Shown here: piece after piece, positions 7,688-47,833 of the stretch
Layout: the number at the start of each line of letters is the position of its first letter
Position numbering within the stretch: the first letter of the stretch is position 1
Source: Leptotrichia sp. oral taxon 212
GTDB taxonomy: Bacteria > Fusobacteriota > Fusobacteriia > Fusobacteriales > Leptotrichiaceae
Assembly (NCBI RefSeq): GCF_001274535.1
Contig: NZ_CP012410.1
Span: 1,957,126-2,021,125, forward strand
Length of the DNA stretch: 64,000 nucleotides
Direction of reading: 5' to 3'
The notes under the pieces: generated by a model
Database searches by the model: none
Told to the model about the DNA's origin: nothing
The model's input: the letters and a program-made list of their open reading frames with translations, nothing else
Made by a program: the position numbers and the translations under genes

Positions 7688-8590
7688 TTATTTGTTTTTA
7701 TTTAAAAAATTATATAATGCACCGAGAAGTCCTGCCTGATTTCCCTGCTGTGCCAGCTCAATACGTGTTTTTCTGAACATATCACTTATCATTCCATCAT
7801 TTACTTCTTTTCTTATTTTTTCTTCAAGATACTCCTTTTGAGCCGTTATTCCTCCTCCAATAACAATAACTTCAGGATTCAGAAGATATATTATATTCCT
7901 TACTCCCACTGCAAGATTTGAGATTATTTCATTTATTCCTGCTATACAGATTTCATCACCTCTTTTTGCAAGTTCAAATATATCAACCCCTGTTATTGTA
8001 TCTGTTATTCCTTCCCTTTCCACTTTTTCCTTCTGAACCTTTTCCACAAGATACTTACTCGAAGCTATATTCTGAATATAGTTTCCATTTACATCCATGT
8101 ACCCTATTTCTCCTGCTGTATATCCGATTCCATTCAGAAGCTTTCCATCCAAGATTACAGATCCACCTATTCCTGTACCTATTGTCAGGCATACCATAGA
8201 CTTTGAGCCTTTTCCCGCTCCTCTCCAGTATTCTCCAAGTCCGGCACAGTTCACGTCATTTTCAACCTCACAGGAAATTGAAAATTCCTTTTCCAGTTCT
8301 TCCTTTATTTTTGTCCCTGTATATTTTGGAATCGTAGGACCTGCATAAGCTATTTCCCCTTTTTCAGGATTTACTACACCTGCTGTCGATACACATATTC
8401 CTTTTATCTCATAATTTCTATATTCGTCAAGAATATTTCTTACAAGCTTTTTTACATCTGAAAGTATAAAATTTTCCTTTTCTGTAACTTTTGTGGAAAC
8501 TGTCCCATCTATGAATATTTCTCCCTTTTCACTCAAAACTCCATATTTTATTGAAGTTCCTCCTATATCTATGCAGATATAATACATCAT
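7688..8590 (-). CDS. nanK: N-acetylmannosamine kinase, ROK family without zinc motif
   Basis: Phosphorylates ManNAc to ManNAc-6-phosphate using ATP. It has ROK-family ATP-binding DIGGTSIKYG at residues 8-17, the catalytic Asp in VENDVNCAGLG, and TIGTGIGGSVI. The conserved ExGH sugar-binding motif reads GEIGYM, and the usual zinc-binding CGxxGCxE cluster is missing. A published Fusobacterium nucleatum NanK structure also lacks the zinc site, as I recall, so this is probably a lineage trait and not damage. The start overlaps the preceding stop as ATGA, indicating translational coupling. Assignment to ManNAc rests on context with nanA and nanE. Confidence 0.92.
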   Translation of the reverse strand: MMYYICIDIGGTSIKYGVLSEKGEIFIDGTVSTKVTEKENFILSDVKKLVRNILDEYRNYEIKGICVSTAGVVNPEKGEIAYAGPTIPKYTGTKIKEELEKEFSISCEVENDVNCAGLGEYWRGAGKGSKSMVCLTIGTGIGGSVILDGKLLNGIGYTAGEIGYMDVNGNYIQNIASSKYLVEKVQKEKVEREGITDTITGVDIFELAKRGDEICIAGINEIISNLAVGVRNIIYLLNPEVIVIGGGITAQKEYLEEKIRKEVNDGMISDMFRKTRIELAQQGNQAGLLGALYNFLNKNK

Positions 8591-8883
8591 TTCACTTCCA
8601 ATCTCTTTTTCAGATTTCTTATAATAAAAATTATAAAATTATACATGGCACTTGCAAACACAACCGGCATATAGTTAAAATACATTGCATACCCCATATT
8701 AGTAAATCCTAGTCTAAATCCTGTTATAAGAAGAAGTACGCTCACTGCATTAACTATAAGCGGTGGAATATAAAGTTTTGTAAACACTCTGTTTAAAAGG
8801 GAAGTCACTACTACAGAACCTGCCATAAACAAAATTCCGTAGTAAAACCATCCTATCATCATCACCTTAATATTTTCCAGCAT
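8587..8883 (-). CDS. Small three-helix membrane protein in the sialic acid operon
   Basis: A 98-residue hydrophobic protein that I do not recognise. Three likely membrane segments are at about residues 10-28, 38-58 and 65-88, with a basic C-terminus (RNLKKRLEVK). It begins two bases after the permease stop and its own stop overlaps the nanK start, so it is tightly built into the operon. It might be an accessory part of the transporter or a second sugar permease component; no motif supports either idea. Confidence 0.8.
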   Translation of the reverse strand: MLENIKVMMIGWFYYGILFMAGSVVVTSLLNRVFTKLYIPPLIVNAVSVLLLITGFRLGFTNMGYAMYFNYMPVVFASAMYNFIIFIIRNLKKRLEVK

Positions 8884-8885
8884 GA

Positions 8886-9722
8886 CTATCCTTTCACTGC
8901 TCCCATTGTTACACCTTGAGTAAAGTAATTCTGGAACATTAAGAATACTATTATCATAGGCAGTGATGCCAGTAATGCTCCTGCCATAAGCAGTCCATAA
9001 TTCAATGAAAATTCAGCACTCTGAGCCATTGCTGCAACTCCAAGAGGCAAAGTTTTCATCATTTCACTGTTTGTAAATATTAACTGTGAAAAATAGTCAT
9101 TCCAGCTGGCAATAAATGTAAAGATTGCCAGAGCTCCTATACCAGGCTTTATAATAGGAAGCACTATACTGATAAATGTTTTCAGTTCATTACACCCATC
9201 TATTCTCGCTGATTCCAGAAGTTCATTCGGAACAGAATGGGAAAACTGCTTCATCAGAAATACTCCAAAAGGCCACCCTACAGCAGGTAATACAAGCGCT
9301 TTATAAGTATCTATCCATCCCAGTTCCGTAATAAATTTTAAAAGCGGTATAAGTATAACCTGTTTTGGAAGTGCCATTGCGGCAACAAATATTATAAATA
9401 TTATTCCTGAACCTGGAAATTTTTTCTTTGCCAGTGCATAACCTGCTAGAGATGCTGTAGTACATACTAATACAGTTGTTGAAAAAGCTATTGCCACTGA
9501 GTTAAAGAACCATCTTAATGTCAACGGAACTAACAACTTGTCAAAATTTTCCAAAGTAGGTTTCAAAGGAAACCATTCAGGAGGTATGCTTATTGCAACT
9601 TCCTGTATTTTAAATGCTCCAGTCGCAATCCAGTAAAAAGGAAATATAAAAAATATTGTCAACATTATTAATATTGTCATTGATATGACTGAAAACACCG
9701 ATATCTTTTTTCTATTTTTCAT
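8886..9722 (-). CDS. ABC sugar (sialic acid) permease, MalG type
   Basis: Inner-membrane permease of a CUT1-type carbohydrate ABC importer, 278 residues with six predicted helices. The cytoplasmic EAA loop reads LLESARIDGCNELKTFISIV near residue 175, with the conserved G of the family. It resembles the SatC-type permeases found in sialic acid clusters of streptococci. It lies 11 bases after the MalF-type permease. AGGAGGAGG precedes the ATG. Substrate assignment rests on the nan gene context. No ATPase gene is adjacent. Confidence 0.92.
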   Translation of the reverse strand: MKNRKKISVFSVISMTILIMLTIFFIFPFYWIATGAFKIQEVAISIPPEWFPLKPTLENFDKLLVPLTLRWFFNSVAIAFSTTVLVCTTASLAGYALAKKKFPGSGIIFIIFVAAMALPKQVILIPLLKFITELGWIDTYKALVLPAVGWPFGVFLMKQFSHSVPNELLESARIDGCNELKTFISIVLPIIKPGIGALAIFTFIASWNDYFSQLIFTNSEMMKTLPLGVAAMAQSAEFSLNYGLLMAGALLASLPMIIVFLMFQNYFTQGVTMGAVKG

Positions 9723-34753: not shown

Positions 34754-38336
<3,583 letters not shown>

Positions 38337-46129: not shown

Positions 46130-47323
46130 CTATTTACAGTATCTTTCCCTTAAAATATGTGAAGCTTCCACCATCGAAGACATTTTTTGCTTTATTATTT
46201 CATATGAATTTAGAGGTCTTTTAGAAAATGTTGCAAAACCGCAGTCAGGATTTAGCCATATTTTTTCAGGCGGAAGAAAATCCAGAACCTTTTCAGTTGC
46301 TTTTACTATCTGTTCAGGAGTTTCCACAATTGTATTTCTAGGATTTAGACATCCAAATCCAAGCATTATCTTTTTATCCAGAAAATTATTTGAAAAAAGC
46401 TGTTTTACTTCACCTGCACGGGATGTTGAAAATTCAAGCGCCAGCATATCCACATCCAGCGAATCAAAAAACTTCCCAAGTCTATCATAGGCTCCTTCCA
46501 GCAACACAGTTTCATCGCAAGTCCAGTTTCCACGGCATACATGCATTGCCCCCAGTACATTTTCATGTTTACGGAGCTCTGCAAATACAGGAGCAAGCAA
46601 CTCATTTACAAATTTAAGTTCTCGATCAACCTTGATCTTCTCTGACAGGGCACCTCAGTAAAACGAATTATCCCCTTTTTTCCTTGTAAAAACAACTTCC
46701 GATAAAATCGGCTCATCAATCTGAATAATACCTGCTCCCATCTCAACTAGCCGTCTTATTTCATTAATTAAAAGCTTTACTACATCATTTCCAAGCTCTT
46801 TACGGTCACTATATACTTTCCCTGTAATTTCCTTCATCCACATGGAACGTGTTAACAGATACGGACTTGGCAACGTCATTTTAAAAGGTTTTTTTGAAAA
46901 TTTTTTTATCATATCAACTTCTTCTGTATTGAGCTCTATATCTGTAGAAATTCTGTCTACACACACAGGACTGTTCATCGTATTGTCTGCCGCATCCATT
47001 TCCTCAAGACTTTTATTGAATTCTTCCATATTTCCTGTAATTTCCTTTATATCTTCCATTGTCATGAGCTTTACTCCAGGAACATGTTCTGCAACATAAC
47101 TCATGTAGTTATCTCTCGCCAATTCCCCACTTACAACCACATCAATTCCTACTTCTTCAGACATTTGAATAATCTTTTCTGTTTCTGAATATACTTTTTC
47201 CTTATATTCCTCAGCATATTTATCATCTTTTATGCTTTTTTCTTTTAAATCAAGCAATTCTTTACTTCTTGGCATACTTCCCATTAAAGTCGTTGAAAAT
47301 GGCTTAAATCTGTTATTATCCAT
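46130..47323 (-). CDS. MetE-like methyltransferase with in-frame TGA, candidate selenoprotein
   Basis: A 397-residue protein of the cobalamin-independent methionine synthase (COG0620) group if codon 223, a TGA at 46655-46657, is read through. The frame is unbroken on both sides. Upstream: TTLMGSMPRS and IIQIDEPILSEVVF. Downstream: GALSEKIKVDRELKF and all four zinc ligands, His261 and Cys263 (MHVCRGNW), Glu297 (ALEFSTSRAG) and Cys361 (NPDCGFATF). From memory, relatives have FMCGAL or FMCAAL where this one has FY-TGA-GAL, so the stop sits at a conserved Cys. Start has AAAGGAGG five bases upstream. Alternatives are a nonsense mutation or a sequencing error. Confidence 0.75.
46624..46657 (-). promoter_or_regulatory. 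TGA codon and SECIS-like hairpin
   Basis: Seventeen bases after the TGA (46655-46657) a hairpin GATCA-AGGT-TGATC begins, so its loop opens 22 bases past the TGA. The loop carries the G and U typical of bacterial SECIS elements. The E. coli fdhF element has a loop AGGTCT about 17 bases after TGA. No extended lower stem was found. Confidence 0.55.
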
Positions 47324-47431: not shown

Positions 47432-47471
47432 AAATAACAATAAGCAGACATCAGCTATCCATGCCTGCTTA
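47432..47471 (-). terminator. Hairpin between yedF-like and MetE-like genes
   Basis: An 11-bp stem with one G-U pair (TAAGCAGGCAT / ATGTCTGCTTA) and a nine-base loop, followed by a poor T-run (TTGTTATTT) on the minus strand. It may allow partial read-through into the MetE-like gene. Confidence 0.5.
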
Positions 47472-47491
47472 CATTTTTCAGTTATATTATT

Positions 47492-47833
47492 TTAAGGTTC
47501 AACAATTAAATTACTGTTAGTCAATATTTCAACAACTTCTGCCATTGTAGTTGTTCCACCTACTTCAAGGTGATCAGTAAGTTCATAATAATCAACACAG
47601 ATACCACATGAAAGTATTTTTACACCTTTTTTCTCAAGTTCCTTTAAGTCTTCAAGACAAGGTGACCCTTTAGTAGTAAGTTTAGCTCCTTCTCCATAAA
47701 AAATAACATGAGCAGGTAAATTTTCCCTTTGAGCAAGAGTATGAATAAATCCATTCATAAGATTATCAATCAGAGCCTGCTCTCCAATTCCCATTCCAGT
47801 TCCTTTAATTACAACATCATAAGTTTGTGCCAT
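47492..47833 (-). CDS. yedF: YedF-like DsrE-fold protein (selenium-associated family)
   Basis: A 113-residue DsrE-like protein matching the C-terminal domain of the YedF group: GMGIGEQALIDNLMNGFIHT near residue 14, GEGAKLTTKGSPCLEDLKEL near 47, then KKGVKILSCGICVDYYEL with a CGIC motif, then GGTTTMAEVVEIL. The full YedF family carries an N-terminal TusA/SirA domain and is described as confined to genomes with selenium metabolism; here that domain is absent. AGGAGG precedes the ATG. It is followed after 168 bases by the MetE-like gene with in-frame TGA. Confidence 0.85.
   Translation of the reverse strand: MAQTYDVVIKGTGMGIGEQALIDNLMNGFIHTLAQRENLPAHVIFYGEGAKLTTKGSPCLEDLKELEKKGVKILSCGICVDYYELTDHLEVGGTTTMAEVVEILTNSNLIVEP

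Follow-up and report, generated by a model that had tools for sequence, protein, structure and literature searches.

A DsrE-only YedF-type gene paired with the gene of a predicted MetE-fold selenoprotein in Leptotrichia

Introduction

Two neighbouring genes of Leptotrichia sp. oral taxon 212 raise the question of whether a small protein of the YedF type can be tied to one particular selenium enzyme. The upstream gene resembles part of yedF, and the downstream gene is interrupted by an in-frame TGA. Both lie on the reverse strand of a 64,000-nt stretch of the genome, hereafter the window. Here we ask what the two genes encode, whether the TGA is read as selenocysteine (Sec), whether the pair recurs in other genomes, and what the two products might do together. 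Feature positions are collected in Table 1.

Table 1. Positions of the features of the gene pair, numbered from the first nucleotide of the window
Feature	Position	Strand	Basis
DsrE-only YedF paralog, putative chalcogen carrier	47492..47833	-	113 aa, CGIC motif, profile matches
12-bp hairpin, possible partial terminator or attenuator	47440..47472	-	Folding of the spacer; T-tail poor
MetE-fold (PF01717) methyltransferase-like predicted selenoprotein, read through TGA	46130..47323	-	397 aa, one frame; profile and model
In-frame TGA, predicted selenocysteine 223	46655..46657	-	Cys/TGA column in homologs
SECIS-type hairpin: 5 bp, loop AGGU, UGA-to-loop distance 22 nt	46624..46637	-	Clade motif, pairing, published rules
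H261, C263, E297 and C361 of the MetE-like protein	46241..46543	-	Invariant in 50 of 50 aligned sequences

Results

The upstream gene encodes a YedF-type DsrE protein

The translated product carries its CGIC motif within ILSCGICVDYY and scored 120.7 bits against the NCBIfam model TIGR03527 (selenium_YedF), for which the curated cut-off is 110, in an alignment that spans only positions 84-193 of the 194 in the profile. The only Pfam domain detected in this product was DsrE (27.3 bits, against a cut-off of 22.7); TusA was absent. The gene therefore is, as had been proposed, a DsrE-only form of YedF with CGIC, directly upstream of the TGA-containing gene on the same strand. Because it consists of DsrE only and covers that part of the profile, we call it a putative YedF-type DsrE paralog, not YedF proper. 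It shares with YedF a DsrE domain above the curated cut-off, the CGxC motif, which is taken as a redox motif in an excerpt on YedF (PMC5322559), and a Sec-using genome. It differs in lacking the N-terminal TusA domain, in having a MetE-like gene rather than selD/selB as its neighbour, and in that the MetE-linked genomes hold another YedF copy besides. The TusA-like domain, for which a search as a separate gene had been proposed, is indeed missing from the MetE-linked copy and is found elsewhere in the genome, both in a full-length yedF within the sel locus and as a stand-alone 71-aa TusA. The nearest folds to the model of the DsrE protein (pLDDT 87.4) were E. coli YchN, DsrEFH and TusBCD; a sequence search of the PDB with this protein gave no match.

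The downstream gene encodes a MetE-fold protein with a single in-frame TGA

The downstream frame contains only one TGA, at codon 223. When it is read through, the 397-aa protein matches the PF01717 catalytic domain at 108.4 bits (cut-off 21). Its fold model (pLDDT 87.3) aligned with 3rpd (Z 37.0, rmsd 2.7, 330 aligned) and 1xdj (Z 36.8). The H-x-C, E and C positions formed by H261, C263, E297 and C361 are presumably the zinc-ligand positions of MetE, and C/U223 is invariant in the same 50 aligned sequences. Sec223 falls within the longest low-confidence loop of the model (residues 215-229, pLDDT <50), after the strand that bears QIDEP. Judging from the model, this segment may be a mobile loop near the active-site face.

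The family thus shares with core MetE (B12-independent methionine synthase; PF01717, 3rpd, 1xdj) the fold, with Z about 37, and the invariant H-x-C, E and C positions. It is, however, longer (397 aa), has a conserved Sec/Cys on a flexible loop and chalcogen-carrier genes as neighbours, and the protein remained under every methionine-synthase equivalog cut-off (best 152.5 bits against 406). The gene is probably annotated everywhere as two broken methionine-synthase fragments.

The TGA aligns with a conserved cysteine

We scanned 84,980 species genomes for the family and obtained 80 loci, the best 80 of at least 518 confirmed. With two Paracoccus sequences, the window and a relative from another genus of the same taxonomic family (G085), these made 84 aligned rows, many of which are close relatives (e.g. 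Neobacillus), so that the counts are not independent and are inflated by kinship. In this set (the best 80 of at least 518 loci plus four), the column of the TGA has Cys in 69 rows and TGA in 15, and no other residue or stop in any of the 84. Besides the window and G085, TGA occurs in ten Bacillota (Gemella, Parvimonas, a Tissierellia bacterium, Facklamia, Companilactobacillus and Atopobacter) and in three deltaproteobacterial MAGs. G085, the one close relative among 98 genomes of the phylum, is 80% identical and has TGA at the same place. The nearest relatives on Paracoccus plasmids are 34% identical and have Cys at the site, reading SFMCGALSE where the window reads SFYUGALSE. At least two U/C changes are needed on the MetE tree, a quick tree without bootstrap, which suggests that the deltaproteobacterial TGA arose separately.

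In those three deltaproteobacterial MAGs (L092, L101, L103), the independent TGA form stands inside a TusA-DsrE-TusA/OsmC operon, and the UGA is followed by a strong GC-rich hairpin, CCCGC-CGTGAC-GCGGG.

A SECIS-type hairpin follows the UGA

The closest clade of relatives (g1) has 12 members, two Fusobacteriales and ten Bacillota. All 12 carry the motif [AG][AG]TCAAG[GA]TTGA[CT] on the 3' side of the UGA, folding into a hairpin with a 5-bp stem and the loop AGGU (AGAU in one member), at 22 nt from the UGA. Published rules for bacterial SECIS elements give a loop of 3-9 nt, a stem of 4-16 bp, G in the first two loop positions and a spacing of 16-37 nt (PMC13188914); the hairpin of the window agrees with them in stem, loop, G position and spacing. 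Within the clade, 96.7% of the helix cells are paired, against 92.2% in shuffles, and only one helix pair varies on both sides (GC/GU/AU), with covariation not above that of the shuffles. The identity of synonymous codons is 0.50 overall and rises to 0.85 and 0.84 in the six-codon intervals that start 8 and 7 alignment columns after the UGA, the two highest values of 355; the hairpin lies within this part of the gene, where synonymous constraint is strongest. The stability of the hairpin in the window is marginal (-7.5 kcal/mol over 61 nt, where the SECIS criterion is -7.5 kcal/mol or lower) and not better than that of shuffles (z 0.67), and 45-nt folds across the clade range from -3.1 to -9.3 kcal/mol around the same criterion.

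The genome encodes the Sec machinery, and the family is linked to selenium

The Leptotrichia genome (2.44 Mb, single contig) has a complete Sec locus about 47 kb beyond the window, in which tRNA-Sec (72.8 bits), selD, yedF, the gene of a PF11823 protein (an Se/S carrier), selB (over cut-off) and an ORF that we read as selA lie on one strand. The selD gene (C1, about 2069.3-2070.9 kb; L002) has an in-frame TGA of its own, at the motif CGGUNSKIGPG, and the genome thus very probably encodes at least two selenoproteins.

Taken together, the TGA/Cys column in the 84 homolog rows, the conserved SECIS-type hairpin and the full Sec machinery uphold the earlier selenium reading, and we predict with near certainty that the TGA is read as Sec. 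The competing reading takes the TGA for a true stop or a sequencing error, and the two pieces for a decaying gene. Although TGA does break an otherwise intact frame, we rejected a true stop, a pseudogene or an error as extremely improbable, because the same TGA occurs in 15 of the 84 separate records (the best 80 of at least 518 loci plus four), solely at the Cys position, synonymous constraint is seen downstream of it, and Sec genes are present.

The family as a whole is found largely in Sec-using genomes. SelB was over cut-off in 64 of the 77 distinct genomes with the family (from the best 80 of at least 518 loci). These comprise every TGA genome searched (12 of 12) and 52 of the 65 genomes with Cys only; SelB is missing from the other 13, which indicates that the Cys form does not need Sec. 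A figure of 21.5% is quoted for bacteria with Sec genes in PMC10418091. In Fusobacteriota, SelB was found in 50 of 98 genomes, and the enzyme-DsrE module is rare (2 of 98). Of seven LysR genes scanned near family loci, six scored above the cut-off of the model for the selenium-associated LysR, NF040786.

Apart from the gene pair, the window contains an abnormal copy of the rRNA operon (34755-38333, reverse strand), in which about 0.85 kb matched to 16S leads straight into 23S. Of five 16S places in the genome, four are full-length and the window copy is shortened, by a real deletion or an assembly artefact.

The gene pair is conserved in the closest clade

We clustered the ORFs within 6 kb of the family loci (from the best 80 of at least 518 plus extras) to define conserved neighbours. 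Every one of the 12 g1 members has a DsrE gene of 111-113 aa immediately upstream of the enzyme gene and on its strand, with CGIC invariant in all 12; besides it, only ABC-transporter ORFs (3 loci) recur in three or more loci. Outside this clade, one locus in 72 (L088) has a DsrE protein like that of the window, which scored 62 bits and is encoded about 2.5 kb upstream. The pairing, for which a neighbourhood survey had been proposed as a check, therefore recurs in other genomes, more than by chance, and the suggestion of a two-gene module gains from its presence throughout the clade. Gene order makes it very likely that the DsrE gene and the MetE-fold gene form such a module.

The remaining loci have other operon types. 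In g2 (29 loci from the best 80 of at least 518 plus extras; mostly Bacillaceae, with anammox bacteria, Chloroflexota, deltaproteobacteria and Paracoccus), a different DsrE protein (28/29), a TusA-OsmC protein (26/29) and TusA (22/29) are encoded upstream. A DsrE-type carrier is hence a partner in two of the three operon types. In g3, where all 43 loci have Cys, the neighbours, named after one locus, are an acyl-CoA dehydrogenase gene (38/43), a binding-protein-like gene (36/43) and an OsmC-like gene (36/43). No relatives were found in viral contigs in two scans.

Several arrangements within these types can be described individually. The enzyme carries an N-terminal TusA-like fusion domain in Paracoccus (L022 5641-7122) and Kuenenia (L105, around 7701-9164); the enzyme gene of Paracoccus ferrooxidans is followed by selA and trxB. 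At L040 (2441-6208) and at least 35 other loci, an operon comprises genes for an acyl-CoA dehydrogenase, a binding-protein-like protein, the Cys-form MetE-like enzyme and an OsmC-like protein; its first two genes resemble the M. tuberculosis Rv1679 and Rv1680 families, on which we found nothing on point among the literature matches listed.

Neighbours that might indicate a substrate vary by species. In G085, a five-gene ABC transporter of the Opp/Nik type (L019 212-5048, reverse strand) starts 3 nt after the selenoprotein gene, which suggests a shared operon and an imported substrate. In Parvimonas, methionine transporter genes of the metNIQ type (L034 9515-11985) lie just downstream of the pair. 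In one Companilactobacillus, C. furfuricola, the stretch upstream of the pair encodes a LysR protein with NF040786 as its best match, at 134 bits and so short of the cut-off of 250. A YedE-like Sulf_transp protein and a CoA-disulfide reductase-rhodanese are encoded there too. The transporters in Parvimonas and G085 hint at imported substrates.

The MetE-linked DsrE copy is distinct from other YedF proteins

All ten g1 genomes from Bacillota encode a further YedF (eight with TusA; two DsrE-only, in Facklamia, beside selB), and the window's genome and G085 each have a full-length one. Since every genome of the clade has another YedF elsewhere, the MetE-linked copy is a dedicated one. Both the MetE-like gene and a DsrE-only YedF are absent from the other two genomes of the G085 genus. 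The Gemella copies near selB (L145, L146) have two TusA domains ahead of DsrE and are about 275 aa long.

A tree of 52 DsrE domains, built with 6 of the 28 g2 DsrE proteins and without 10 duplicate loci, separated 34 other YedF or orphan rows from the 12 MetE-linked rows by a 100/100 branch. The class "sel_linked" in this tree takes in all other YedF copies that are full-length or near selB, and two of them are not near selB on their contig. The 113-aa protein grouped with YedF and not with the g2 DsrE proteins, in keeping with its original naming. When the tree was rooted on these distant g2 proteins, the 12 MetE-linked copies were not one clade, and a clade was not rejected (AU p 0.512). The MetE tree unites g1 in a single clade (SH-aLRT 100), within which the window and G085 fall among Bacillota sequences. 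We take this placement as a sign of transfer between phyla, and the same species come together in the DsrE tree.

Four Fusobacteriota genomes, all from a single genus, have an orphan DsrE-only YedF and neither SelB nor the MetE-like gene. In two of these genomes (loci at L132 5115-5462 and L133 4816-5163), no selenium-related neighbours were apparent by eye. The DsrE-only form is therefore not diagnostic of selenium, and we rejected it as proof of selenium use by itself. The earlier view of YedF as a sign of selenium metabolism holds here, beside a predicted Sec enzyme and in a genome with Sec machinery, but not for the DsrE-only form alone.

The spacer contains a hairpin

The two genes are 168 nt apart. 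A weak terminator had been placed in this spacer; the hairpin is there, but its T-tail is poor and a terminator scan of the 168 nt called none. Strong hairpins are present in 8 of the 10 Bacillota spacers of g1 and absent from the two of Facklamia (30 and 10 nt). A plausible role is partial termination, by which DsrE would be made in excess of the enzyme.

Discussion

The pairing, the TGA/Cys exchange, the SECIS-like element, the Sec machinery, the MetE fold with its intact presumed zinc-ligand positions and the co-occurrence with Sec genes were all read from sequence. We consider it rather probable that the two genes are a selenium module made up of a zinc methyltransferase with a Sec loop and a chalcogen carrier of the CGIC DsrE type. 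The enzyme would be a cobalamin-free zinc methyltransferase of the MetE fold, with Sec on a mobile loop beside the barrel. Acting at the zinc site, it may demethylate a small compound of selenium or sulfur (or, less likely, methylate it), and Sec, or Cys in the relatives, would take part in the methyl transfer. The freed chalcogen would pass to the DsrE partner, probably to be carried on CGIC as a persulfide or selenosulfide, and from there to the selenium pathway of the cell. The substrate, the direction of transfer, the contact between the two proteins and the role of the spacer hairpin are what we infer from this arrangement.

MTHFR is the source of methyl-tetrahydrofolate. It was present in 7 of the 12 g1 genomes, including that of the window, and not found in the other five, one of which is a 1.1-Mb MAG; its absence there argues against ordinary methionine synthesis as the general role. 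A variant of true methionine synthase, acting on homocysteine and methyl-tetrahydrofolate, with Sec only raising reactivity and DsrE as a bystander or a repairer of oxidised Sec, would account for the MetE fold with its invariant H-x-C, E and C positions, for MTHFR in those seven genomes and for the Parvimonas copy that adjoins metNIQ. Because MTHFR is missing in five clade genomes, we did not adopt plain methionine synthase as the leading reading, and the shortfall from the equivalog cut-off, the constant partnership with a chalcogen carrier in two branches and SelB in 52 of 65 Cys-only genomes (from the best 80 of at least 518 loci) also make it quite unlikely. The genomes without MTHFR lack an evident methyl donor for an enzyme working in the opposite sense, that is, for detoxification in which the sulfide, selenide or persulfide delivered by DsrE would be methylated by the enzyme and then exported. 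Such a system would have the same anatomy as the demethylating module, and methylation is given as a known route of selenium detoxification in a section of PMC11097638; we nevertheless regard it as unlikely, since the linkage to Sec-using genomes and to the selenium LysR fits supply better than disposal.

It is also conceivable that DsrE stands outside the reaction and serves as a reductant or sulfur donor to make or repair the Sec enzyme, given that its CGxC is treated as a redox motif in YedF (PMC5322559, in the excerpt noted above) and that the Sec loop is exposed and flexible in the model. However, the Cys-containing g2 branch keeps its own DsrE and TusA; the partnership does not depend on Sec, and a repair role seems doubtful at best. 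We favour the module of a putative zinc methyltransferase and a DsrE carrier.

By analogy, the closest functional parallel to this module would be the corrinoid methyl-selenide system. Selenium-starved Methanococcus induces TusAD together with UroD-type methyl-selenide methyltransferases, as described in part of PMC11097638. Type I Mlp and SdmABC of the UroD superfamily are, according to extracts of PMC10418091 and PMC11097638, likewise methyltransferases of the same wider superfamily in Sec-using organisms. They act together with a corrinoid protein, whereas DsrE is the partner here, and none of the conserved neighbours of the MetE-like family is a corrinoid protein. Tentatively, the pair may be one branch of an undescribed pathway, independent of cobalamin, by which bacteria release selenium, and perhaps sulfur, from methylated organic compounds. 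In it, a zinc demethylase of the MetE fold with Sec or Cys in its active site would hand the chalcogen to DsrE, TusA and OsmC carriers. If so, it would be a B12-free counterpart of the corrinoid Mlp/Sdm system, spread through many phyla and moving from one to another as a unit.

A 2022 review presents its Table 1 as a complete list of reported families, and no MetE or PF01717 entry is in it (PMC9312934). Of the 119 prokaryotic selenoprotein families in Table 1 of a 2026 review, which takes in the families of Haft and Gwadz 2023 and of Haft and Tolstoy 2025, DsrE-like (UxxC) and OsmC-like (UxxT) members are listed and MetE/PF01717 is not (PMC13188914). Our literature search for a MetE-type selenoprotein found nothing on point. 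Going by the 2022 and 2026 catalogues, a MetE-fold enzyme would thus newly join the selenoproteins, and an orphan YedF-type carrier is now tied to one enzyme. This opens a direct test of what DsrE proteins of the YedF type carry, and of how host-associated bacteria may obtain selenium from organic forms.
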